Of a stretch of DNA of 33,233 bases, positions 1,143 through 19,186 are shown one piece after another; position 1 is the first letter of the stretch; each line of letters opens with the position of its first letter. Location of the stretch: assembly GCA_016872925.1 (NCBI GenBank), contig VGYR01000010.1:1-33233 (forward strand), written 5' to 3'. Made by a program: the position numbers and the translations under genes. The DNA is from Planctomycetota bacterium. Its GTDB lineage: Bacteria > Planctomycetota > Planctomycetia > Pirellulales > UBA1268. Below the pieces are notes generated by a model, which was not told where the DNA came from, did no database searches, and worked only from the letters and a program-made list of their open reading frames with translations.

Positions 1143-2348
1143 GTCCAGTTCGGTCGATTCGCCGCCTTGCAGCCGCCGCACCGTGAGCGACACCACGTCC
1201 CCCACGCTGATGCCCGTCCGCAGGCCGCGGTCGAAGGCCCGGCGCTCGTCGCGGCTGGAGAACTCGAGCCGCCGCCCCGCGAAGGCCACGATCACGTCCC
1301 CAGGCTTCAGTCCGGCGGCCTCCGCCGACGATCCCGCCTCGACCGCCTCGACGACCGGCAGGAGATCTCCCCCTCGCGGCCGCTCGAAGTCGATGCCGGT
1401 GCGGCATCGCTGTGGAGCGGTGAGCGTCGCCCGGAGGTCCTGCTCCGCGCCATCGCGGCGGATGCGGACCGCGACCTCCTGCCCCGAGGGATAGATGCCG
1501 ATCAGGCCGGCGAGCCGGTGGCCGTTGGCGACCCCCGCGCCGTCGATCGCCAGGATCGTGTCCCCGGCAGCGAACCCGGCCGCCGCCGCCGGCGAACCCT
1601 CCGCCACCTCCTGGACCACGACACTCTCCGGCCGCTCGCGGTCGCGGCTCTCGAACCGCAGGCCCGCGAGGGAGGCGTGGTTCACGACCCCGCCCCCCGC
1701 CTGCTCGAGGAGCGGCAGCCAGATCGCGATCTGTCGCGCCGAGATGGCAAAGCCCAGGCCGGTGTTGCTCCGCAGCCCGAAGCGGGTGCTGATTTGACCG
1801 TTGATCCCGACGACCTCCCCGGCCATGTTCACCAGCGGCCCGCCCGAGTTTCCCGGATTGAGTTCGGCGTCGGTGACGATGCACTCGGTGTAGGTGCCCT
1901 GCGCATGATGCACGGCCGAGACGATGCCCAGGGTGAACGTGGGCGCTTGGTCGATCACGCCCAGCGCGAACGGGTTGCCGACCGCAACCACCTCGTCGCC
2001 CACGCGAACCGCGGCGGAATCGCCGAGGGGCAGGTGCGGCAGCGGCTCCCCCTCGGGAACGTCGATCTTGAGAACCGCCAGGTCGCCAACCTCGTCGCGG
2101 CCGAGGACCCGGGCCTTGCAGGACCGGCCGTCGCCGATCCGGACGTCGAACGCGCGGCGATCCTCCAGCACGTGGTCGTTGGTGAGCATCAGGCCGTCGG
2201 GACGGACCACCACGCCGCTGCCGCCCGCGATGAACACGTAGGCTGGCCGGATCGCAGCACACAGGGCGGCCAGATCGCCGGCCTGGGCCGTCGTGGCCAG
2301 GCCGACGACCGCCAGAGCCGCCGCACGCATCGCCAGGTGCCTCTGCAT
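1122..2348 (-). CDS. HtrA/DegP-like secreted serine protease with two PDZ domains
   Basis: 408 residues. An N-terminal signal peptide (hydrophobic run, then AQAG near residue 23) sends it to the periplasm or cell surface. A trypsin-like domain follows with a full catalytic triad: His59 in TNDHV, Asp89 in GDLAVLK and Ser168 in NPGNSGGPL. Two PDZ-like regions come next, at about 235-300 and 315-400, recognisable from SPAAAAGFAAGD and SSAEAAGLKPGD. HtrA proteins degrade or refold damaged envelope proteins, with PDZ domains binding exposed C-termini. Its ATG overlaps the stop of the upstream gene (TGATG), so the two are almost certainly translated from one message. The upstream partner is a catalytically dead relative. 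Orthology to DegP, DegQ or DegS cannot be settled by eye. Confidence 0.93.
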   Translation of the reverse strand: MQRHLAMRAAALAVVGLATTAQAGDLAALCAAIRPAYVFIAGGSGVVVRPDGLMLTNDHVLEDRRAFDVRIGDGRSCKARVLGRDEVGDLAVLKIDVPEGEPLPHLPLGDSAAVRVGDEVVAVGNPFALGVIDQAPTFTLGIVSAVHHAQGTYTECIVTDAELNPGNSGGPLVNMAGEVVGINGQISTRFGLRSNTGLGFAISARQIAIWLPLLEQAGGGVVNHASLAGLRFESRDRERPESVVVQEVAEGSPAAAAGFAAGDTILAIDGAGVANGHRLAGLIGIYPSGQEVAVRIRRDGAEQDLRATLTAPQRCRTGIDFERPRGGDLLPVVEAVEAGSSAEAAGLKPGDVIVAFAGRRLEFSSRDERRAFDRGLRTGISVGDVVSLTVRRLQGGESTELDLRLVAR

Positions 2349-4348
2349 CAGCGGACCTCCCCGAGCACGACGGTGATCTCGCGAGCGTCGTCGGTCTCCA
2401 GACGACCCGCGAAGGATTCGCCGGGCTGGAGCGACTTCTTCAGCCGCTCCAGGTCGTCGAGGGTCTCGACGTCGCGGCCGGCGATCACGAGCCGGGGCCC
2501 CCGCTGGCTGCGACGGATCGTGAGCACCACCGCGTCGCCCGGCTTGGCCGCGGCGATCCGTTCGGTGAGGTCCCGCCAGGCGGAGAGTTCCACGCCATCG
2601 TAGGCCAGGATCACGTCCCCGTTCTTCAGGCCCGCCTTCGCCGCCGGCGATCCCGGCGCCACCGACCCGATCACCACGTCGTCACCGAAGGCCTTCGACT
2701 CGTCGGCCTGCACGCCGAGGAACGGGCCCGGGAACCGCTCGAAAGACCTGCCGGCCTTGAGGTCGTCGAGCACGGCGCGGATCCGGTCGGCCCGGGCCAC
2801 GAATCCCACGCCCGAGTTGGGCGCGCGGCTCCAACGCATCAGCTGCTGCCGCGGGAACAACCTGCCCTGAACGGTGTCGGGCTCGATCGGCGCCGTCGCG
2901 ATCCCGAGCAGGCTGCCGAAGGCGTCGACGACCGGGCCTCCCGAGTTGCCGTAGTTGAGCAGGGCGTCGGTCTGGAACCGATAGCCGCGGTTTCGTGAGG
3001 CGGCCCCCACGATGCCCGGATTGAGCGTCTCATCGCCGGCCGCCGCCGAGCCCAATCCGACGACGGCCACGTGGTCGCCGAGTTGCGGCGACACGGCTGC
3101 CGCCAGGTCGAGCCACGGAAGGTCGGCGGCCTCGATCGTGAGCAGGGCGATGCCCAGCGGTTCGTGGCGGGCGAGCACCCGCGCCTCCCGGCGGCTGCCG
3201 TCGGCCAGCACCACGACGACGCGCCGGATCGCGTTGTCGCGCGGGACGAGTCGGCCATCGGCCTCGGGGGCGGAAACGGACGGACGGGGCCGACCGGAAC
3301 CCTGGGAAATGAAGGCGGTGTCGGCGCCGACATTGAACGAGCTGGTGAGCACGTGGCCGGTGGCCGAGACGACGACCCCGGTCACGGGGCCCGGCGGGCG
3401 GCGGAGCAGTTGGTTGACGTCGAGCAAGCCCGCCCGTGCAGCGAAGGCAGCGAACTGCGAGCCTTTCTCGGCGTCGGAGAGCCGATCCCAGCCGGCCATG
3501 CTGCGGCGGTGTTCCTGCCAGGATTCCCGCGGCAGTCGCTCCGGCGGCCAGGTCCGTTCCACCTCGATGCCCACCAGGTAGGGCGCGACAGCCGAGGCGG
3601 TCCGCCGCAGCCCATCGAGAGGCGGCGCGGGGACGGATGCAGTCGGGTCGTCACCGGCCACGGACACGCCGACCGTCGCCAGGGGGGCGAACCTCTCGAG
3701 CACCACGGCGGCGGGCACGGCGACACCCTGCCAGCGTTGCGGCGACACCGCCAGACTGATCACCCCCACCACCCGGCCTGTGGCGTCGACGAGCGGCCCG
3801 CCGTCGGAGCCCGGATTCACCGCTGCGGTGGTCTCGATGACCCGTCCCGCATAGGGGGACTCCGGCTGCTTGTCGACGTCGTACAGCCCGCTGACGAAAC
3901 CCCGGCTGAACGACGCCCGGCCGTTGGCCAGCATGACGCCATCCACATCGGCCGCGGTGAACGCCACGTCGCCGACGGCCGGCAGCCGGCGGGCGAGGGG
4001 TAGGCTAGCAAGCCGCTCCTCGGCCGGGACCTTCACGAGCGCGACACCGAGGTTTTCGTCGACGGCCATCACCGTGGCCTCCAGCCGCCGGGTGCCGGGA
4101 AGCAGCACGGTCACCTCGGTCGCCCCCTGCGGCACCGCACTGGCGGCCGTGAGCACGTGCCCCTCGGGTGAGATCGCGAAGCCCGAGCCCGAAAATGATC
4201 CGCCGTCAACGGAGCATGCGACGCTCACCGTGGCCGCCAGCACGCGATCGGCGATGGCGTGGATGTCGACGACCGGAGCGTCATCGGCCCGCGTCGGCAG
4301 GCCGCTCGCGAGCAGGAGGCAGACGGCAACGACGGCCCCTCGTCCCAT
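2348..4348 (-). CDS. Double trypsin-like pseudoprotease with PDZ domain (HtrA-related)
   Basis: 666 residues from ATG 4348. A signal peptide covers roughly residues 1-21. Two trypsin-like domains lie at about 35-225 and 310-560, then a PDZ-like domain (SPAAKAGLKNGD) to the end. In domain 1 the His, Asp and Ser positions are Ser70 (LTAAS), Gly101 (NLGVALVKV) and Asp182 (NPGSDGGPL). In domain 2 His is Phe (LTSSF) and Asp is Gly (LGIALLTI), while Ser survives in YGNSGGP. Neither domain should be proteolytic, so a binding, scaffold or regulatory role is inferred. It is the first gene of a coupled pair with the intact HtrA. The ORF track extends upstream to 4651, but that stretch has no coding character and runs through the promoter and into the divergent cupin gene. 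A promoter ends six bases before this ATG. Confidence 0.88.
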   Translation of the reverse strand: MGRGAVVAVCLLLASGLPTRADDAPVVDIHAIADRVLAATVSVACSVDGGSFSGSGFAISPEGHVLTAASAVPQGATEVTVLLPGTRRLEATVMAVDENLGVALVKVPAEERLASLPLARRLPAVGDVAFTAADVDGVMLANGRASFSRGFVSGLYDVDKQPESPYAGRVIETTAAVNPGSDGGPLVDATGRVVGVISLAVSPQRWQGVAVPAAVVLERFAPLATVGVSVAGDDPTASVPAPPLDGLRRTASAVAPYLVGIEVERTWPPERLPRESWQEHRRSMAGWDRLSDAEKGSQFAAFAARAGLLDVNQLLRRPPGPVTGVVVSATGHVLTSSFNVGADTAFISQGSGRPRPSVSAPEADGRLVPRDNAIRRVVVVLADGSRREARVLARHEPLGIALLTIEAADLPWLDLAAAVSPQLGDHVAVVGLGSAAAGDETLNPGIVGAASRNRGYRFQTDALLNYGNSGGPVVDAFGSLLGIATAPIEPDTVQGRLFPRQQLMRWSRAPNSGVGFVARADRIRAVLDDLKAGRSFERFPGPFLGVQADESKAFGDDVVIGSVAPGSPAAKAGLKNGDVILAYDGVELSAWRDLTERIAAAKPGDAVVLTIRRSQRGPRLVIAGRDVETLDDLERLKKSLQPGESFAGRLETDDAREITVVLGEVR

Positions 4349-4354
4349 GCCGCG

Positions 4355-4382
4355 ATTGTATGCCATCGGGAGACCGCGTGAA
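4355..4382 (-). promoter_or_regulatory. Sigma-70-type promoter of the pseudoprotease-HtrA operon
   Basis: On the minus strand, TTCACG (4382-4377) is followed after 16 bp by TACAAT (4360-4355). Six bases then separate the -10 from the ATG at 4348, so transcription would begin at or next to the start codon and give a leaderless message. The hexamers match the consensus at 4/6 and 5/6. This is a sequence match only. Confidence 0.55.
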
Positions 4383-4420
4383 ACCACGCAGGGCGGCATC
4401 ACGCGACACTCCGCCCGCGG

Positions 4421-4449
4421 TTGCGAACCCGAGTCGTCGTCCGTACAAC
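4421..4449 (+). promoter_or_regulatory. Sigma-70-type promoter of the cupin sugar operon
   Basis: TTGCGA (4421-4426), a 17-bp spacer and TACAAC (4444-4449). The predicted start near 4456 leaves a leader of about 53 nt that includes the AGGAGG ribosome site of the cupin gene. It is divergent from the pseudoprotease promoter, with about 40 bp between the two -35 hexamers. Confidence 0.5.
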
Positions 4450-4508
4450 AACGTCCTTCGACGATCGAACTCACCGCCGCCTTGACCGGCCGCATCAGGA
4501 GGTCTTGC

Positions 4509-5768
4509 ATGGCTGCAGCCGTTACGGGAACAGCGCTTCTGCCGGCAGCGAAAAACGTGGGCTCGGCGCTCAGCCGTGGGCTCGACGCCGGCCGCGGGAT
4601 GCTCCGCCTCTCGCCCACCTGGGTGCCGCGGAGCTTTCTCCATCCCGGCAAGCGGGTTCGCCTCCATCCCGACGACTATTACGCCTACGGCCTCGACCGG
4701 GGTGGCATCGACGAGCGCTGGTTCGCAAGCACGACGGAGGCCGCCAACGAGGGCCGGGTCCCCGACGAGGGGCTGTCGTGGTGCGTGGTCGAAGGGGAGC
4801 GGTTCCTGCTGCGCGACGCGGTGGCCGAAGGTCAATCACGGCTCGTCGGCAAGGCGATCTGGGATCGGTACCAGAAGTGGCCCGTGTATTCGAAGTTCTT
4901 CGACAACATGGGCCCGATCCCGCACCACATGCACCAGTCGGCGGCCGACGCGGCGCTCGTGGGCCAGGAGGGCAAGCCCGAGAGCTACTACTTTCCGCCG
5001 CAGTACAACAACTGCGACAACAACTTCCCCTACACGTTCATGGGGCTGGAGCCCGGCACCACGAAGGCCGACGTCCGCAGGTGCCTGGAGAACTGGAACC
5101 GCGGCGACAACGGGATCATCGATCTCGCCAAGGCCTACCGGCTCAAGCGGGGCAGCGGCTGGCTGATCCCGCCGGGCGTGCTGCACGCCCCGGGATCGCT
5201 GCTGACCTACGAACCCCAATGGGGCAGCGACGTGTTCGCGATGTTCCAGTCGCTCGTGGAGGGGCGGGCCGTGCCCTGGAGCCTGCTCGTCAAGGACATG
5301 CCCGAGGACAAGCACCGCGACCTCGACTTCATCATCGGCCAGCTCGACTGGGAGAAGAACGTCGACACGCACTTCAAGGAGAGCAACTACCTCGAGCCCA
5401 TCGTGGACCAGTCGCAAAGCGTTCCGGGCGCGACCGACCGCTGGATCGTGTACGGCCACGTGGACGGCAGGCAGCTCTTCAGCGCGAAGGAACTGACGCT
5501 CGAGCCCGGGGCGAGCATCACCGTGAAGGACGCCGGCGCCAGCGGTTGGATCACGGTGCAGGGGGAGGGCACGGTGGGCGCGCACGACGTGGCCACGCCC
5601 ACGCTGATCCGCTTCGGCCAGATGACGGCCGACGAACTGTTCATCTCGGCCGACGCAGCGGCCTCCGGCTACGTCGTGAAGAACACCGGCCCGGGCCCGC
5701 TGGTGTCGCTCCGCTACTTCGGCCCCGACGTCCACCCCGACCTCCCCCTGAACGGAAAGCGGTCATGA
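4509..5768 (+). CDS. Cupin protein resembling mannose-6-phosphate isomerase
   Basis: 419 residues. The start is fixed by a perfect AGGAGG six bases upstream of the ATG; the longer ORF in the track is antisense to the pseudoprotease gene. Features resembling the metal-binding cupin core of type I phosphomannose isomerases are [16 protein letters not shown] and [14 protein letters not shown], giving candidate His, Glu and His metal ligands. A C-terminal beta-rich segment contains [11 protein letters not shown]. The overall sequence is not a classical ManA, so the substrate is unknown; aldose-ketose isomerisation of a sugar or sugar acid is the best guess. It is first in an operon, and its stop overlaps the next gene's ATG. 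The family is recognised from motifs only. Confidence 0.72.
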
Positions 5769-6799
5769 TGTCACACGCCGCCCCGAAACTGCACAACGCC
5801 ATGTGGCCCGGCCTCGTGGGCAAGGGCACCGATCCCGGCCAGGAGCCCCCGATCTCGCTCGAGCGGATGCTCGAGTTGACCGCCGCGGCGAACGTCAACG
5901 GTCAGACGTTCGACGGCATCGACTACTTCCTGTACCTGCCGCACACCAATCCCGAGGCCAGCGACTCCGAGCTCGTGCAGATCGCCGACACGATCGCGAG
6001 GCACGGCTTCGCGATCGGATCGCTCGTCGCCCCTGTCTGGCCGGGCACGGTGGGCGACTCGGCGATGGGTGACGCGGCGGCCCGCGAGAAGTTCCTGGCG
6101 GCGGTGACGATGGCCTGCCGGATCGCGCGGGTCTTCGAGCGCCAGGGCGTGCGGAACTATGGCGTGATCCGGATCGACTCGGCCGAGTTCGGCGTGGCGA
6201 AGTGGCGGGAGAACCCGTCGGCCAACACCTCGAAGATCGCCGAGACGTTTCGCGAGGCCGCGAAGATCGCCAAAGACCACGGCCAGCGGCTCGCGGCCGA
6301 GGGGGAGATCTGCTGGGCGGGCATGCACTCCTGGAAGGACATGCTCGACCTGCTCGAGGAAGTGGGGATGCCCGAAGCGCTCGGCTTCCAGGCCGATCTC
6401 GCCCACACCTACCTCTACCTGCTCGGCTACAACGCCCCGGAGCACGCCCTCGTGCAGCCCGGCTACACCGAGGCCGAGTTCTGGCCGGCGTACGAGTCGA
6501 TGGTGGCGAAGCTGCGGCCCTGGACCTACGACTTCCACGTCGCCCAGAACGACGGCCAGGTGCACGGTGCGGGGTCGCACGACAAGACGGGCAAGCACTG
6601 CCGGGCCGACGATCCTGCCGGCAAGCTCGACATCGTGAAGTGCGCGGGCCTCTGGCTGGAGGGGGCGGCCGACCGTGGCATCCGGCACATCTGCTGGGAC
6701 GGCTGCATGTTCCCCAACGCGACGCTCGAAGACCCGAAGACCTGGAACACGATCCTCGAGACGATGATCGCCGTCCGCGACGCCCACGGCTGGGGGTGA
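5765..6799 (+). CDS. Sugar phosphate isomerase/epimerase-like TIM-barrel protein
   Basis: 344 residues, belonging to the xylose-isomerase-like (AP endonuclease 2) TIM-barrel superfamily. Blocks consistent with a divalent-metal site are LAAEGEICW (Glu), GFQADLAHT (Asp, His) and [10 protein letters not shown] (His). These enzymes isomerise or epimerise sugars, inositol derivatives and keto-sugars. Two adjacent ATGs (5765 and 5768) are possible starts. The first overlaps the cupin stop as ATGA, with GGAAAG upstream, which points to translational coupling. Position between a PMI-like cupin and a Gfo/Idh/MocA dehydrogenase implies a shared sugar pathway. I cannot name the substrate. Confidence 0.82.
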
Positions 6800-6874
6800 G
6801 CCCGGCGACGAGACGTGTGCCGTTCCCGAGCCGGCGTCCCTCGATACCACCCTGAACAACCAGAGGAATTCACG

Positions 6875-8011
6875 ATGGCCAAGCAGCTCCGCATCGGCAT
6901 GATCGGCTACGGCTTCATGGGCCGGGCCCACTCCAATGGCTACAACCGTGTGAAGGACTTCTTCGACCTGGAGTATCTCCCCGTCCTGCAGGCGGTCGCC
7001 GCCAGGGATGCCGACAAGGCGAAGTCCTTCGCCGACCGCTGGGGCTACCGGAGGGTGGAGACCGACTGGCGGAAACTCGTGGCCGCCGACGACATCGACG
7101 CGATCGACATCTGCACGCCCAACAACCTCCACGCCGAGATCGCGATCGAGGCGGCGAAGCACGGCAAGGCGATCCTCTGCGAGAAGCCCCTGTCGATGGA
7201 CGTCGCCGAGGGGGAGCGGATGTGCGCGGCCGTGGAGCAGGCCGGCGTGCCCAACACCGTCTGGTACAACTACCGCCGAATTCCGGCGGTGACGTTCGCC
7301 AAGCAGATCATCGACTCCGGGGCCCTCGGACGCGTGTTCCACTACCGCGCCGAGTTCCTCCAGGACTGGACCATCAGCGCGGACCTGCCGCAGGGCGGGG
7401 CGGCCCTGTGGAGGCTCGACGCGGCCGCGGCCGGCAGCGGCGTGACGGGCGACCTGCTCGCCCACTGCATCGACACGGCGATCTGGCTCAACGGGAACGT
7501 GGCCGACGTCACGGCGATGACCGAGACGTTCGTGAAGGAGCGCAAGCACACCCTCACCGGGAAGGTGGAGCCCGTGAAGATCGACGACGCCTGCTCGTTC
7601 CTGTGCCACTTCGCCAACGGTTCGCTCGGGCTCTTCGAGAGCACCCGGTATGCCCGCGGCCACAAGGCCCTCTACACGTTCGAGATCAACGGCGAGACCA
7701 TGAGCCTGAAGTGGGACCTCCATGATCTCCATCGGCTGCAGGTCTTCGACTACAAGGACGCCGGGCCGATGCGGGGCTGGAAGAGCGTCCACGTGACCGA
7801 CGGGGATCATCCCTACATGGGCAAGTGGTGGGTGCCGGGCCTGGCGATCGGCTACGAGCACTCGTTCGTCCACCACGTGGCCGACTTCCTCGAGGCCTAC
7901 GCGAAGAAGCAGCCCTGCCCGCCGACCTTCCGCGACGCGCTCGAGACCCAGAAGGTCTGCGCGGCGGTGTTGCAGAGCGCGAACAGCCGTCAGTGGGCGA
8001 AAGTCGGCTGA
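6875..8011 (+). CDS. Gfo/Idh/MocA family NAD(P)-dependent oxidoreductase
   Basis: 378 residues. The Rossmann fold starts at once with [13 protein letters not shown] (GxGxxG), followed by [14 protein letters not shown] and the family signature CEKPLS, whose Lys is catalytic in this family. The C-terminal half is the alpha/beta substrate domain, with [12 protein letters not shown] supplying the usual catalytic Asp and His. The start is ATG 6875 behind AGAGGAA; the longer track ORF adds upstream codons with no ribosome site. Such enzymes oxidise or reduce a sugar, inositol or sugar-acid hydroxyl with NAD(P). A 75-bp gap separates it from the TIM-barrel gene, and only four bases separate it from the next gene, so a single operon is likely. 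No signal peptide is visible, so it should be cytoplasmic. Confidence 0.93.
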
Positions 8012-8015
8012 CGCC

Positions 8016-8960
8016 GTGACGCTCCGCCCGATGTCGGCGACCGCCGCCATCGCCCTGCTGGCGGCGCTCGTGGCCGCGGCCGCGGCCCCGAAGCGCTTCG
8101 TCGTGGACGGCTTGTCCATGGCGCCGGGCCTGATGCCGGGAGCGGTGGTCGCGACCGGCTGGTTTCCGGCGGGCGATCGGCTCACGCGGCCGGACAGGCT
8201 GGAGACCTGGGTGGTGGCCGCACCGGACGGTGAGCGGGCCGTCAAGCGGCTGATCGGGCTGCCCGGCGACGTGGTCGCGGTCGCATCGGGGGACGTGCTG
8301 ATCGATGGTGAGCCACTCCTCAAGCAGCCGCCGGAGTTGGCGCAGGTTGCGGTGCCCGTGCCGATTCGCGGAGTCGTCGCCGGTGGACGACTGGAGATCG
8401 CCCCGCGAGAAGTGCTCGACGACGCGGCGTTCGCCCGCGAGGTGAACCGCCCCCTGGAGCCGGTGGCCGACGTGGGCATGACGGTGACGATCCGCGCGGC
8501 CGACCTGCCGGGGAGCCTGGTCGCGGGCGTGGAGGACGCCCGCATCGGCTGGCGAGTCGCCGCCGGGGAGCGGTGCGTGGTGCTGGCTGGTCGCCTCGAC
8601 GGGCACGTGGTCGCCGTCGCCTGGCGGGTGCATCGGCTCGAGCCCACCGATGCGGGGCGTCCCCTGCCCGACCGAGTGCCGCGGGCGTGGAGCGTCGCCA
8701 CTCGCCGGACCAGCGTCGCGGGCCGGCCAACGCTTTCGCCCGGGCTGTCTCTCGAGAGCGATCCGCCCGTCGTGGTCGAGGACGTGCGGATCTGGCGCGA
8801 CGTGCTGGTCAGGCCGACCGCCGGTGGCACGACGTCGTGGCGACTCGGCCCCGACGAGCATCTGCTGCTCGGCGACTTTCCCACCGGCAGCGTCGACGGC
8901 CGGCAGTGGGGGCCGCTGCCGCGCCGGGCGCTCCGGCAGCGGGTCAGCCGCCTTCGCTGA
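8016..8960 (+). CDS. Signal peptidase I-like protein (S26 family), divergent
   Basis: 314 residues. One N-terminal hydrophobic segment (about 8-24) precedes the S26 boxes. Ser34 in GLSMAPGLMPG is the expected nucleophile and Lys77 in ERAVKRLIGLPGD the expected general base. The last box is LLLGDFPTGSVDGRQWG, which departs from the usual GDN-R pattern. About 210 residues lie between the Lys box and that box, where membrane-side insertions are common. Signal peptidases remove signal peptides from exported proteins. I start at GTG 8016, four bases after the preceding stop; ATG 8031 is also possible, and neither has a good ribosome site. The 3' end overlaps the convergent LarA-like gene by 17 bp. 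It is probably an accessory paralogue. Confidence 0.78.
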   Translation: MTLRPMSATAAIALLAALVAAAAAPKRFVVDGLSMAPGLMPGAVVATGWFPAGDRLTRPDRLETWVVAAPDGERAVKRLIGLPGDVVAVASGDVLIDGEPLLKQPPELAQVAVPVPIRGVVAGGRLEIAPREVLDDAAFAREVNRPLEPVADVGMTVTIRAADLPGSLVAGVEDARIGWRVAAGERCVVLAGRLDGHVVAVAWRVHRLEPTDAGRPLPDRVPRAWSVATRRTSVAGRPTLSPGLSLESDPPVVVEDVRIWRDVLVRPTAGGTTSWRLGPDEHLLLGDFPTGSVDGRQWGPLPRRALRQRVSRLR

Positions 8961-10170
8961 TCCGGTCGGCGGCGTGCGGAAAGCTCCGGTCGGCCTCGGC
9001 GACGACGGCGAGCCGGTCGCTGCGGCGCGCGAGTCGCTGCACGGACTCCGGCCCCGGTGCGTGGCCGAATTCCAGTTCCTCGACCGCGGCTTCATCGAGG
9101 TCCGACAGCAGCACGAGCCGCCGGTCGGCGAGCCCGCGGGCGAAGATGCGTGTCAGCAGGGCGTCGGCGATCAGCGACTCATCGCCGCTGGCGACGGCCT
9201 CGTGGACGAGCGGCTCCAGCGGCGCACCCTGCCGCCACCGCGTGAGGATCACTCCCGGCGGCTCCACGTGCCGGCAGGCCACGCAGATCATGCCCCCGGG
9301 ACGCGTCGCCCGGGCGGCAGCCGACGCGGCGGCGGCGATCATGCCGAAGCCGCCGTCCGGATCGGAGAGCGCGGCCACCACGACATCTGCCTGCTCCAGC
9401 TGCGGGCACCACGCGGCCGCCACCTCGCGGGCCTGCCGCGCCGCCTCGTCGGGAAGCCCGAACCGCGCGGCGAGGATGCTGCCTTCCGCGCCCCGCACGA
9501 CCCGGAGACTCGCGCACACCCCCAACTGCCAGGCGATGTCCTGCATGCCCCCCTTCCACTCGGCCAGGGCGTTGCGGCCGCGGCGGGCCAGCGCCACCAG
9601 CAGGTCTCGGCGGCACTGGGCCCGGGCGAAGGTGGGCCAGAGTTCACCCTCGATCGAGCGGCCGCCGAACGCAGGGCTCCAGCCCCACTCGCCGACGGCG
9701 ACCACGACATCGGCATCGACGAGGGCGCGGGCGAGATGGAGCGGACGGCCGGCCTCGTCGGCGGCGAGATACGCGGTGGCCGACTCGACTGCCGGGTCGA
9801 AGGCCTCCGCTCCGGCGACCGGCCGGCGCGGTCCGGCCGTGCCGGAGGAGCCATACCCCAGCATGGGCCCCTCGAGAACCGCCACGTCGGCCGCCTCGAC
9901 GCCGGCAGTCATCAGGCAATCACGAACGGCCTCGACGACCGCTTGTTCCTGCGGCACCTCGCCGGCGATCGCGATCACCACCCGATCTCCCGGCACCACG
10001 TGCGCGGTCAGCGGGGGCCCGTCGAGCGGACCGGTGAGGGCGGCCGCGACCATGCCCCGTGCCTCGGCCCCGGTCGCGCCGGCCGGCGGCGCGAACGACC
10101 CGGGAGTTACCGCCGGCGACTCGAACACGAGTGGCTGGTCCGCGCCGTAGTCGAGCGTGATCGGGTGCAC
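8944..10170 (-). CDS. LarA-like (DUF2088) protein lacking racemase signature residues
   Basis: 408 residues from GTG 10170. The pattern follows the nickel-pincer lactate racemase family: an ITLDYG beta strand at the N-terminus, a PLTAHVVPGDRVVI segment, ALVDADVVVAVG, then AFGGRS, and near the C-terminus RPGGMICVACRHVEPPG. The family's active-site motifs are not visible: the DHTRP position reads AGEVPQE, the His after the first domain is missing, and the HFFAGFSGGRK region reads SPAFGGRS. Racemase activity is therefore doubtful. The ORF track starts at 10287, overlapping the divergent lipoprotein start. I prefer GTG 10170 because family similarity begins there and a TACACT -10-like element lies upstream. 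The family is inferred from pattern, not a search. Confidence 0.65.
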   Translation of the reverse strand: MHPITLDYGADQPLVFESPAVTPGSFAPPAGATGAEARGMVAAALTGPLDGPPLTAHVVPGDRVVIAIAGEVPQEQAVVEAVRDCLMTAGVEAADVAVLEGPMLGYGSSGTAGPRRPVAGAEAFDPAVESATAYLAADEAGRPLHLARALVDADVVVAVGEWGWSPAFGGRSIEGELWPTFARAQCRRDLLVALARRGRNALAEWKGGMQDIAWQLGVCASLRVVRGAEGSILAARFGLPDEAARQAREVAAAWCPQLEQADVVVAALSDPDGGFGMIAAAASAAARATRPGGMICVACRHVEPPGVILTRWRQGAPLEPLVHEAVASGDESLIADALLTRIFARGLADRRLVLLSDLDEAAVEELEFGHAPGPESVQRLARRSDRLAVVAEADRSFPHAADRISEGG

Positions 10171-10216
10171 GGTGCCGCGGGTGGGCTGGACGGAGGGAGC
10201 GGAGGCGGGGAACCGA

Positions 10217-10226
10217 AGTGTATCGT
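10217..10226. promoter_or_regulatory. Overlapping divergent -10-like elements
   Basis: TACACT on the minus strand (10222-10217), facing the LarA-like gene, and TATCGT on the plus strand (10221-10226), facing the lipoprotein gene, share bases. Predicted leaders are about 40 and 53 nt. No convincing -35 is visible for either. Confidence 0.3.
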
Positions 10227-10285
10227 CGCCCCGAGCGGCGAGAATGCTCTGTTCCCGGATCGGGGCTTTCGCGCAAGATGCCGGC

Positions 10286-12658
10286 ATGAAAGCCCTGCGA
10301 CGAGCGTGTGCGGTATGGTGCCCCGCCGTCGTGCTGCTCCTGTCCGGCTGCGGGGCCGATCCGCGGCAGGTGCTCGAGTCGATGGCCCACGCGTACCGGA
10401 CGGCCGAGCACTATTGCGACGATGCCCGCGTGGTCGTGCGGCACACGCGGGCCGGCAGCACCACCGAATCGACCCAGCCATTCCGCATCGCCTTCAGCCG
10501 GCCCGACCGGCTGCGGGTCGAGGCCTACGACGCCCGCGTGGTCGGGGATGGCGCGGCGCTGTTCGCGGCCGTCGGCGGGGTGCCGGGCCAGGTGCTCGTC
10601 GAACCGCTCCGCAGCCCGCTCGACATGGATCAGCTATTTGCCGACGACGTCGTCCGGGGAACACTGACCGAGGGGGAGGCGGGCTGCCCTCCACAGCTGC
10701 CCCTGCTGCTGGCCGACGACACGCTCGACGTGATCCTCGCCGATGCGGAGGCCGACCCGCAGATCGTGGGCACGGAGGTGGTCGACGGTCGGCGCTGCCA
10801 CCGCATGGCCGTGGCCAAGGCGGAAGGCTTGCTCGAACTCTGGATCGATTGCGAGTCGGCCCTGGTGAGGCGGATGCGGGTGCCGACCGCCGCCTACGCC
10901 GACGAGGCCTCCCGAGAGGCCGGAGCTCCGGTGGGGATCTCGGTGGACGTCGAGTTCGTGTCGGCGGCGTTCGCACCGGCCGCCGCCGAGGCCTTTGCAT
11001 TCGAGGTGCCGCCCCGGGCCGCGCAGGTCTCCCGCCTCGAGCCACTGGAGCGCCCGCGACCGCCCCATCCGCTGCTGGGAAAGCCGGCCACCCTGCCTGC
11101 GCTCGCGCCGGCCGACGGCATCTCGCCGGAGGCGGCGGTCACGGCGGGCGGCCCGATGGTGCTCGAGTTCTTCTTCGACGGCTGCTCGCCCGCGACCAAG
11201 ACGATGCCCGAAGTCGCCGCCGGAATCGCCGCCTTCACCCGGGACGGCCGCGGGCAGCCTGCCACCTCACCCCCGCGGCACTTCGCCGTGAGCCTCGACC
11301 CGGCGGAACTCACCACCGCGGAGATCAGGAAGAGGCTCGCCGAGTTCGGCGGCGTGGGCACGCTCGTCAGGGACACAGACGCGGCCGCGGCGCGAGCCTT
11401 GGGCCTGGAGTCGTTTCCTGCCATCGTGATCATCGCCGGCGACGGCACGGTGGCCGACGTGATCGTGGGCGAACGGCCCCAGATCGCGGCCGACGTGGCC
11501 GAAACCCTCGCCGCCCTGGGCCGCGGCGACTCCACCATGGGCCTCGTGCAGTCTCGACACCGCCGCAGGCTCGACGAGTACCGCCGCAGACTCGCGGTTG
11601 CGGCGTCGGGCAACGACGACCGTGGCGTGCCAAAGCCGAGCATCGCCCCCCAGCGGCAGCCCGACCGATTCAAGCTGCGGCCGGCTTGGCGGGCCGCAGT
11701 CACCATGCCCGGCAACCTGGTCTGCCTCGACGCGACCAGGGGGTCTGCCGAGGTGCGGATCGTGGTGCTCGACGGCTGGCGAACGGTCGTGGAACTCGAT
11801 GCCGACGGAGTCGAACTCGGGAGGCATGAACTCGACCTGCCGCCCGACGCGGCAGTGACCTTCCTGCGATCCGCCGGCGCCGCGGACGGCCGGCGGTGGT
11901 GGCTGGGGGGCAGCCGGGGTGGGCGTCAGGTGTTTTTCCTCGACGACGCGTTTCGGATCCGCGCGGCCTATCCCGCCGATGCCTCGGCGACGGCATCGAT
12001 CCTGACCGCCGAGCTGGCCGATCTGGATGGCGATGGAACTCCGGAAGCGGTGGTCGGCTTCACGGCACCCCGCGGTGTCGAGGTGGTCTCGCTCGACGGC
12101 ACCCTCCGCTGGTCCGACGTGCGGGCCGACGCCACGGGAGATCTCGCCGCCGCCGGGCCGGGTGGCGGCGTGCTGTTCGTCACCACGACAGGTCGCCTGG
12201 GCCACGCGTCGCCGACCGGTGCCACGTCTGGACAACCAGCCGCGACGGATCGGACGTTCGCGGCGATCCTCGCCGGCCCGGTGGCCGGCGACGGCGGCTG
12301 GGCGATCGCGGGCCTGACCACGCGGGATCCCGACGGCCAAGCGCTCGTCGGCCTCGATCCGCGCTCGCTGGACGTTTTGTCCGATCTCCCGATCGCCGGC
12401 GGCTCGACCATCACCGGCCCGCTCGAGCCCCTGGCCTGGGCCGACCTGCTGGGCACCTCCCGACGGCAGTGGTTGGTGGCCGCGGCCGATGGGTCGGTCA
12501 CGGTGGCCTGGGCCGACGGCCGGATCGTCGACCGCTATTGCCATGGCCGGCCGCTTGCGGGGATCGGCGGCTACCGGCGCGGCGACCGCGGCCACCTCGT
12601 GCTGGCCACGGCCTCGGGCATCGAGGCCCTCGCCATCGACGACGTGGCTCTCGACTGA
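10286..12658 (+). CDS. Composite lipoprotein: LolA-like, thioredoxin-like and FG-GAP-like parts
   Basis: 790 residues from ATG 10286. A lipobox (LLLSGC, Cys22) marks it as a lipoprotein. Residues about 25-240 look like a LolA/DUF2092-type beta fold (FRIAFSRPDRLRVEAY, GRRCHRMAVAK). Residues about 280-420 resemble a thioredoxin/TlpA fold: PMVLEFFFDGCSPATKTMPE sits where a WCxxC active site would be, but only the first Cys is present, and SFPAIVII supplies the expected cis-Pro. The rest is beta-propeller-like, with an FG-GAP-type calcium motif (LADLDGDGTPEAVVGF, near residue 578). Anchoring would be on the periplasmic or outer face of a membrane. I do not recognise this domain combination as a named protein. 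No strong ribosome site precedes the ATG; the track's longer start overlaps the divergent gene's leader. Confidence 0.82.
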   Translation: MKALRRACAVWCPAVVLLLSGCGADPRQVLESMAHAYRTAEHYCDDARVVVRHTRAGSTTESTQPFRIAFSRPDRLRVEAYDARVVGDGAALFAAVGGVPGQVLVEPLRSPLDMDQLFADDVVRGTLTEGEAGCPPQLPLLLADDTLDVILADAEADPQIVGTEVVDGRRCHRMAVAKAEGLLELWIDCESALVRRMRVPTAAYADEASREAGAPVGISVDVEFVSAAFAPAAAEAFAFEVPPRAAQVSRLEPLERPRPPHPLLGKPATLPALAPADGISPEAAVTAGGPMVLEFFFDGCSPATKTMPEVAAGIAAFTRDGRGQPATSPPRHFAVSLDPAELTTAEIRKRLAEFGGVGTLVRDTDAAAARALGLESFPAIVIIAGDGTVADVIVGERPQIAADVAETLAALGRGDSTMGLVQSRHRRRLDEYRRRLAVAASGNDDRGVPKPSIAPQRQPDRFKLRPAWRAAVTMPGNLVCLDATRGSAEVRIVVLDGWRTVVELDADGVELGRHELDLPPDAAVTFLRSAGAADGRRWWLGGSRGGRQVFFLDDAFRIRAAYPADASATASILTAELADLDGDGTPEAVVGFTAPRGVEVVSLDGTLRWSDVRADATGDLAAAGPGGGVLFVTTTGRLGHASPTGATSGQPAATDRTFAAILAGPVAGDGGWAIAGLTTRDPDGQALVGLDPRSLDVLSDLPIAGGSTITGPLEPLAWADLLGTSRRQWLVAAADGSVTVAWADGRIVDRYCHGRPLAGIGGYRRGDRGHLVLATASGIEALAIDDVALD

Positions 12659-12781: not shown

Positions 12782-13162
12782 GTGCTTTCACCCCGCCACA
12801 TCATCGCAGCCGTCGTCGTCGCCGTGCCGTCGCTGTTCGCGACGGGCACCGCATCTGCCCAAGACACGACGGTCATGGACGAATCCGCGACGATGTCCAC
12901 GGACGGGTCGGGGAGCGGTTGCGGTTGCCGGAACGTGCAGAGCCCCCCCTGGCATGCCAGCGTGAACGGCCCGGCCTGCGGCCCGGCCTGCCACCACTGC
13001 GGCGTGTTCCACGCGGATCCGTGCGGTCAGTTGCGGGCGAAGCATGACATCCACCGTCATTGCGGCGTCACCCTGCCCCCCTGCTTTCCGCGACTCCACA
13101 CGTGGTGGGCCGAGGGCCACATGCCCACGCCCAAGCCGCTGGCGCTGCCTCGTTGCCATTAG
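12782..13162 (+). CDS. Small secreted Cys/His-rich protein, unknown function
   Basis: 126 residues from GTG 12782, which has GGGAGGT about seven bases upstream. A clear signal peptide ends near TASAQ, leaving a mature part of about 100 residues. That part holds nine Cys and ten His in motifs such as GCGCRN, PACGPACHHCG, HADPCG and HDIHRHCG. The composition suggests metal binding or a disulfide-knotted extracellular protein, but I recognise no family. It sits 123 bp downstream of the lipoprotein gene on the same strand and ends before a strong hairpin shared with the convergent transporter gene. The ORF track's ATG at 12668 adds a non-hydrophobic leader with no ribosome site, so I reject it. 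Confidence 0.72.
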   Translation: MLSPRHIIAAVVVAVPSLFATGTASAQDTTVMDESATMSTDGSGSGCGCRNVQSPPWHASVNGPACGPACHHCGVFHADPCGQLRAKHDIHRHCGVTLPPCFPRLHTWWAEGHMPTPKPLALPRCH

Positions 13163-17830: not shown

Positions 17831-19060
17831 CTACCCGCGCGGATCGGTCACCGTGCCGGCGAACAGCACGGCCCCCGTGGCCCGGTCGACGATCGCCCAG
17901 GCGAAGGGCCGGTCGGCCTTGATCTCCAGCGGCTCCTCGGGCTGTGGCCGCATGCTCCGCACGCCGACCACCACCCCGGTCGCGGCGGCCGCCTCGGTGC
18001 CCTCCTCGGAGACGTCGACGAAGCCCTCGTGCACGACGTCGCTGACGAACAGGTCCCGCGTGCCATCGATACCCGAGAGGTCGGCGGCGGCCGCATCGAA
18101 GGCCGCTCTCATGCCGAGCGACTCGAGCGCCCGATTGAGCTGCAGCGGCTTGCGGGCCGTCCACTTCGGAAGCGACAGGTCCACCGCCCGCAACGCCACG
18201 TCGTCCGACCCGGCGGCCCACTTCGTCCGCCAGTCGCCGGCGAGGCTCCCGAGCACCGACTCGAGCCCGTCGGTCGCGACCGGCACCACGAGCACCATCG
18301 CGAGACCATGCCCCGCGTACGGAAGTTCACAGACCATGGCCGACTCGTCGCCGGAGCCCGTCCGACCGGCCAGCATGCGGCCCGACCGGCGCATGAAGGG
18401 CACGTCCACCCGATCACCGGCGCCGAGCTGAAACGGCTCGGGACGCGTCGCCGACTTCTCGAACGGCTCGGCCCACGGAGCCTTGAGAAAGACGGCGTTG
18501 GTGAGCACGATCCGCGTCAGCGGCGTGATCGAGCCGGCCTTGAGCAGCTCCGGGATCTTGTCCGCGGTGTGCCCGGACACCCAGCGGTTGATCTCTCCAC
18601 GGGCGGTCTCGGGAGCGGTGGAGAAGTCGACGAGCCCGGCCGCGGCGGCGAACCTGTCTTCCAGCGCGGCGGCGAATCCGGGATCGATCTGCTTGCCGCG
18701 CTGGATCCAGAGCCGATTCGCCACCTCCAGCGTGATCGACGCCCCCCTGGAGTCGGCGAACGACGTGCGCAGCGCCTCGGCCGCGGCGGCGATGGCCGCC
18801 CGATCGTCGGGCATGCCCAACACGGCGGCGATCTCGCCGGCCGTGGTACCCCGGGCTCCCTGGTGCGTCATCGCCAGCGCCTCCCAGACGCTCGCCGGCG
18901 AGACCACCACGGTGCCGCCGCCGGCCGCCCGCACCAGGTCCCAGGCGAGTTCGTCGATCCCCGCCGCCGCCGTGGCGGCATCGCGCTGCGCTTCGGGGCG
19001 GGCCTCGACGGGCACGAGCCCCGCCAGCATCAGGGCCGCCAGGGTCACGATCCTTCGCAT
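17831..19060 (-). CDS. Secreted serpin (serine protease inhibitor)
   Basis: 409 residues from ATG 19060, with a signal peptide of about 24 residues (LAALMLAGLVPVEA). Serpin landmarks are in order: VVVSPASVWEAL, the shutter region, IVLTNAVFLKAPW, and the inhibitory hinge EEGTEAAAAT. After the reactive loop come DRPFAWAIVD and VLFAGTV. Serpins trap proteases as covalent complexes after cleavage of the reactive loop. Counting 17 residues from the first hinge Glu, as in antitrypsin, puts Arg at P1 and Ser at P1', which predicts inhibition of trypsin-like proteases. The short Ala hinge residues favour an inhibitory serpin. The ORF track's GTG at 19186 adds a non-hydrophobic leader and is rejected. 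It is followed by a terminator-like hairpin and then ppdK on the same strand. Confidence 0.95.
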   Translation of the reverse strand: MRRIVTLAALMLAGLVPVEARPEAQRDAATAAAGIDELAWDLVRAAGGGTVVVSPASVWEALAMTHQGARGTTAGEIAAVLGMPDDRAAIAAAAEALRTSFADSRGASITLEVANRLWIQRGKQIDPGFAAALEDRFAAAAGLVDFSTAPETARGEINRWVSGHTADKIPELLKAGSITPLTRIVLTNAVFLKAPWAEPFEKSATRPEPFQLGAGDRVDVPFMRRSGRMLAGRTGSGDESAMVCELPYAGHGLAMVLVVPVATDGLESVLGSLAGDWRTKWAAGSDDVALRAVDLSLPKWTARKPLQLNRALESLGMRAAFDAAAADLSGIDGTRDLFVSDVVHEGFVDVSEEGTEAAAATGVVVGVRSMRPQPEEPLEIKADRPFAWAIVDRATGAVLFAGTVTDPRG

Positions 19061-19090
19061 CCTTTTCCCCTCACGTCCGACGTTTCGGCA

Positions 19091-19108
19091 CCCGCGGGCA
19101 TCCGCGGG
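19091..19108 (-). other. Short perfect inverted repeat upstream of the serpin gene
   Basis: CCCGCGG and CCGCGGG flank a 4-nt loop (7-bp stem). It lies about 30-50 bases before the serpin ATG, between a weak -10-like TATCCT (19125-19120) and the start codon. It could be a leader hairpin or an operator; GC-rich chance is also possible. Confidence 0.3.
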
Positions 19109-19180
19109 TCGCCGCTCAGAGGATATCCGGCGGGCGACCCCGGCGTCTGCCGACCCGGCCGGCCCCGAGAGGCGATCCCG

Positions 19181-19186
19181 TACCAT
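19181..19186 (+). promoter_or_regulatory. -10-like element of the NagA-like gene
   Basis: TACCAT followed by GTCGG, implying a start near 19193 and a 27-nt leader. No clear -35 is seen. Confidence 0.3.

Follow-up and report, generated by a model that had tools for sequence, protein, structure and literature searches.

The window, a 33,233-nucleotide stretch corresponding to contig 10 of a 4.5 Mb planctomycete draft genome in 503 contigs, holds a forward-strand frame that is open from 10157 to 12658. The likely start is an ATG at 10286 and the stop codon lies at 12656-12658, giving a 790-amino-acid product (10286-12658, +) for which full-length homologues from many families of the order could be aligned. 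Its first segment (10286-10351, +) encodes a putative signal peptide and a lipobox, LLLSGC, in which Cys22 would be lipidated, and because of this lipobox the protein is predicted to be anchored in a membrane. A lipobox-like motif was present in many homologues and absent from some. Behind it lie, all on the same strand, a LolA-like (DUF2092) domain (residues 25-250; 10358-11035), a ResA/TlpA-type thioredoxin-like domain with a following helix (residues 256-440; 11051-11605), and an FG-GAP/PQQ-like beta-propeller (residues 458-790; 11657-12655). The gene thus reads as that of a real three-part membrane-anchored lipoprotein comprising a lipid-pocket domain, a thioredoxin-like domain, and a beta-propeller. 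The original prediction had placed a lipoprotein with the motif DGCSPATKTMPE at exactly these coordinates, and both frame and motif were as stated; its three domains were likewise borne out by Pfam, a family profile, AlphaFold2, and Foldseek.

Structure prediction, which had been proposed as a check, recovered a thioredoxin fold and the two others, and together with Foldseek supports all three at the level of models. AlphaFold2 gave a mean pLDDT of 87 for the full length, with a pTM of 0.58 that is too low for the mutual packing of the three domains to be read from the model, and a pLDDT of 93 with a pTM of 0.82 for residues 23-444.

In the LolA-like domain, Pfam DUF2092 matched residues 142-248 above its cut-off (E 4.5e-6; 26.6 bits versus 21.2), and the family was found in 34 of the 42 aligned homologues from which all Pfam domain counts were taken (E 0.01). 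Foldseek searches with the model of residues 23-444 matched LolA structures, with TM-scores by target length of about 0.5-0.6, while the domain alone had no significant sequence match in the PDB (LolA 8orn, E 0.65), such that the likeness was visible in the fold search only. The domain also contains C171 (10796-10798, +), the sole cysteine invariant in 42 of 42 aligned homologues. LolA is a soluble carrier; the window protein, in contrast, has its own lipobox anchor (LLLSGC22) rather than a soluble periplasmic form, and is fused to a thioredoxin-like domain and a propeller. DUF2092 has been placed in the LolA superfamily by a published analysis (PMC4520260).

The thioredoxin-like domain was assigned to the ResA type by a family-alignment profile (5.7e-24 versus ResA) and by Foldseek, where the model of residues 23-444 matched ResA with a TM-score of about 0.8 by target length; Pfam AhpC-TSA was found in 33 of the 42 homologues. 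It resembles ResA/TlpA oxidoreductases in fold, in the position of the first active-site Cys, in that of the cis-Pro, and probably in its extracytoplasmic location, to which the lipobox points, but differs from them in being fused to two other domains and in its active site. The latter, DGCSPATKTMPE (residues 298-309; 11177-11212, +), reads C300-S-P-A303 in place of CxxC, with Gly instead of Trp before the first Cys. The lone Cys and the replacement of the resolving Cys by Ala were therefore correctly foreseen. So was retention of the cis-Pro region, since P378 (SFPAIVII; 11417-11419, +) aligned with the cis-Pro position, as judged from the alignment rather than from geometry, and was conserved in 90% or more of homologues. 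A peroxidase role, which the original prediction had listed among its options, is disfavoured because the domain is of the ResA/TlpA type and the residues around C300 (VLEFFFDGC) do not form the PxxxTxxC of 1-Cys peroxiredoxins.

The C-terminal propeller gave a weak FG-GAP_3 match in the window protein, below the cut-off (13.9 versus 26.9 bits); FG-GAP_3 was detected in 26 and PQQ_2 in six of the 42 homologues. From the strand count, it is probably seven-bladed. With the full model, Foldseek matched beta-propellers, the top match being 7djk (SOQ1), with BamB also among the matches.

Of 60 relatives of the window genome, 40 had a match to the protein, many of them full length and at about 27-66% identity. 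Across 298 genomes of the class, matches that reached through the propeller were restricted to the window's order, Pirellulales, and other orders carried a shorter LolA-thioredoxin version whose open frames mostly spanned about 420-570 amino acids and whose CxxC was nearly always intact. The original prediction had considered the LolA-like and propeller parts unusual company for a thioredoxin-like domain, which holds for proteins generally; in this order, however, the fusion is common, and in the class so is the pairing of LolA with thioredoxin. Within the window's family the gene is patchy, with matches at 1e-30 in 21 of 72 genomes, some of which are incomplete. A back-translated pattern scan of the genome contigs returned two loci only; named relatives among these contigs were a Pirellulales bacterium and a Planctomycetaceae bacterium, from which the order of the window was deduced.

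The state of the active site varied widely among homologues. In a tree of 67 rows, 41 had both Cys, nine the first only, five the second only, and 12 neither, and a minimum of 11 changes of state were counted for each active-site Cys. CxxC was the commonest state, occurring in 17 of the 18 rows outside the main group of the tree, and is probably ancestral; the tree was a quick reconstruction (LG+G4, SH-aLRT only) that was midpoint-rooted for drawing, so that the direction of change is itself an inference. The proteins retaining only the first Cys formed a single group of nine (support 87), all from the window's genus, with Ala or Ser at the second site. The window genome is a draft in 503 contigs, and a sequencing or assembly error could in principle have removed one Cys; however, substitution at the same site in nine independent genomes that form one tree group refutes this, and we regard an error as having practically no likelihood. 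Both Cys were retained in one protein of the same genus (L010) and two of the same family (L011 and L013), and neither in another family member (L012), where the two positions are occupied by N and S. Moreover, the thioredoxin-like domain had been cleanly deleted in G029, from the window's family (L098:4126-6045, -), and in G053, from another family (L099:4487-6754, +), leaving the LolA-like domain and propeller joined directly in one open frame. Thus, conservation of the lone Cys, which had been suggested as a check, extends to the whole of the window's clade, nine proteins, but is not general outside it; homologues without this Cys, which the original prediction had named as evidence against its reading, do exist there (L012, others with one or both Cys lost, and the two with the domain deleted), and that interpretation as a whole is partly supported.

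With its resolving Cys lost, the domain in the window's genus would be incapable of a dithiol cycle by itself, and since relatives lack both Cys or the whole domain, it has probably ceased to be a redox enzyme. It might still act as a thiol-disulfide oxidoreductase by borrowing a resolving Cys from another protein, as CxxC is probably ancestral and is present in close relatives (L010, L011, L013, and L090-L093), but both Cys, and indeed the domain, have been lost repeatedly where the other two domains remain, and we consider such borrowing very unlikely.

Selection on the domain was examined using per-domain dN/dS, counted by the Nei-Gojobori method. For four pairs taken from the one-Cys clade, values for the thioredoxin-like domain were 0.16-0.35 and resembled those of the other two domains; for a pair lacking both active-site Cys (L045/L047), the value for this domain was 0.11. 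The domain is therefore still under purifying selection, even in the Cys-less pair, which argues that in that lineage the fold is retained without thiols, for a purpose other than dithiol chemistry; by analogy, the fold in the window's clade may likewise be kept for something beyond it. C300, P302, P308, and the cis-Pro were all present in the nine one-Cys proteins, but because 27% of the sites in the domain were equally invariant among them, the invariance of C300 is not exceptional, and excess conservation of this residue was rejected.

These observations bear on whether C300 is a working monothiol. It would then be joined in a mixed disulfide to a client or small thiol, or paired with a second Cys in the protein, and the domain would serve as a trap or redox sensor. 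Retention of C300, P302, and the cis-Pro in nine of nine clade members speaks for this, and in a motif alignment C300 corresponds to ResA Cys74 and A303 to the residue changed in the Cys77Ala variant, whose structure (2h19) was among the Foldseek matches. Candidate partners are C134 and C480, found in nearly all family members, and immediately downstream lies a gene for a small, Cys-rich secreted protein (12788-13159, +). On the other hand, the conservation of C300 does not rise above background, and C134 and C480 occur both in CxxC members and in L012, where both active-site Cys are missing. They thus do not represent a compensating change, and were rejected as a replacement resolving Cys. 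Overall, a functional monothiol appears a possible but rather unlikely explanation.

The small downstream protein had no Pfam match and was detected by tblastn in 12 other loci, within the window's family. In this G+C-rich genome, many of the ORFs called beside the lipoprotein gene are shadow ORFs, and neighbours were therefore assessed by homology only. A conserved one was a LarA-like (Lar_N) gene (8944-10185, -): in 30 of the 41 loci of the order that were examined, it lay beside the lipoprotein gene in divergent orientation, with gaps, taken between matched domains, of about 140-740 bp; of the 11 remaining loci, one was cut off too near to tell. It was also retained at both loci with the thioredoxin-like domain deleted (L098 and L099). 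The window copy scored below the Lar_N cut-off and those of L079 and L086 above it. Alignment with the malate racemase Mar2 for one homologue (Mar2, GYSGGHKALLPG; L079, GCHAPGSSIYPL) revealed no pincer Lys, and the neighbour is probably a degenerate LarA-like gene. Additionally, a GCV_T-fold (YgfZ/CAF17-like) gene was found in 15 loci on the same strand, behind the LarA-like gene or replacing it. The lipoprotein, the Lys-less LarA-like protein, and the GCV_T-fold protein could conceivably constitute an undescribed envelope-linked module of Pirellulales with the pseudo-thioredoxin as its protein-binding part, a proposal that we hold to be doubtful. The conserved divergent neighbour gives a starting point for working out what this lipoprotein, retained widely across the order, does. 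Elsewhere, the window encodes two neighbouring trypsin-like/PDZ proteases (1122-2348, -, and 2348-4651, -), a serpin, that is, a serine protease inhibitor (17834-19186, -; Pfam E 2.7e-90), and a 1037-amino-acid ORF with no Pfam match (5774-8884, -) that is perhaps partly a shadow frame.

We favour, with somewhat better than even confidence, a periplasmic scaffold that binds lipid or lipoprotein, in which the thioredoxin-like domain is now a non-catalytic module; C300 would be left as a relic or, at best, as a monothiol. In this role the open barrel of the LolA-like domain of the membrane-tethered protein would accommodate a hydrophobic ligand, be it an acyl chain, a lipid, or a lipoprotein, and the propeller could dock a partner by analogy with the propellers of BamB or SOQ1. 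The middle domain would derive from a catalytic ResA/TlpA-type thiol-disulfide oxidoreductase and, in the window's genus, persist mainly for binding or as a spacer, with C300 at most occasionally reactive. We infer the class of ligand, the docking role, and the absence of catalysis; the scaffold is favoured because of the support for the folds, the repeated Cys losses, the two domain deletions, and selection in the absence of thiols, as well as the location of the one invariant Cys, C171, in the LolA-like domain. Against it stands C300, which all nine one-Cys proteins retain along with P302, P308, and the cis-Pro, although such invariance is not exceptional in this domain.

Each of the three domains is already known, and what is new is the way they are combined, along with the serial loss of Cys; our search, which was thin on subscription journals, found no literature on a LolA-thioredoxin-propeller architecture in planctomycetes. 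The homologues form a natural series within one otherwise conserved protein, running from a dithiol site through a single Cys and a Cys-less site to loss of the domain itself, and allow one to ask what a thioredoxin fold does once it is no longer an enzyme.

Among known systems, BamB is a lipoprotein propeller, and the window protein shares this property, with PQQ_2 in six of 42 homologues and BamB among the Foldseek matches, but BamB lacks LolA-like and thioredoxin domains. Thioredoxin-propeller fusions occur elsewhere in NHLRC2 and SOQ1. Like NHLRC2 and the lumenal region of SOQ1, the window protein has a thioredoxin-like domain followed by a propeller, and its matches to such proteins, at rmsd values of 18-20 (near 18 for 7djk), indicate agreement in domain order with a packing that differs or is not modelled. 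It differs in that a LolA-like domain belongs to the same polypeptide and in having an FG-GAP/PQQ-like rather than NHL propeller by Pfam, probably with seven blades; neither the CCINC motif nor the six-bladed NHL propeller is found in it. NHLRC2 possesses that motif and a propeller of six blades (PMC6107167). The lumenal thioredoxin-propeller part of SOQ1 acts on the lipocalin LCNP, and dithiothreitol did not reverse the change in LCNP (PMC10173003, PMC6107167), so that the thioredoxin-like domain of SOQ1, too, may or may not act through thiol exchange. By analogy, then, a thioredoxin-like domain, a propeller, and a lipid-binding barrel may be seen to co-occur both in SOQ1/LCNP and in the window protein, where they are joined in one chain.
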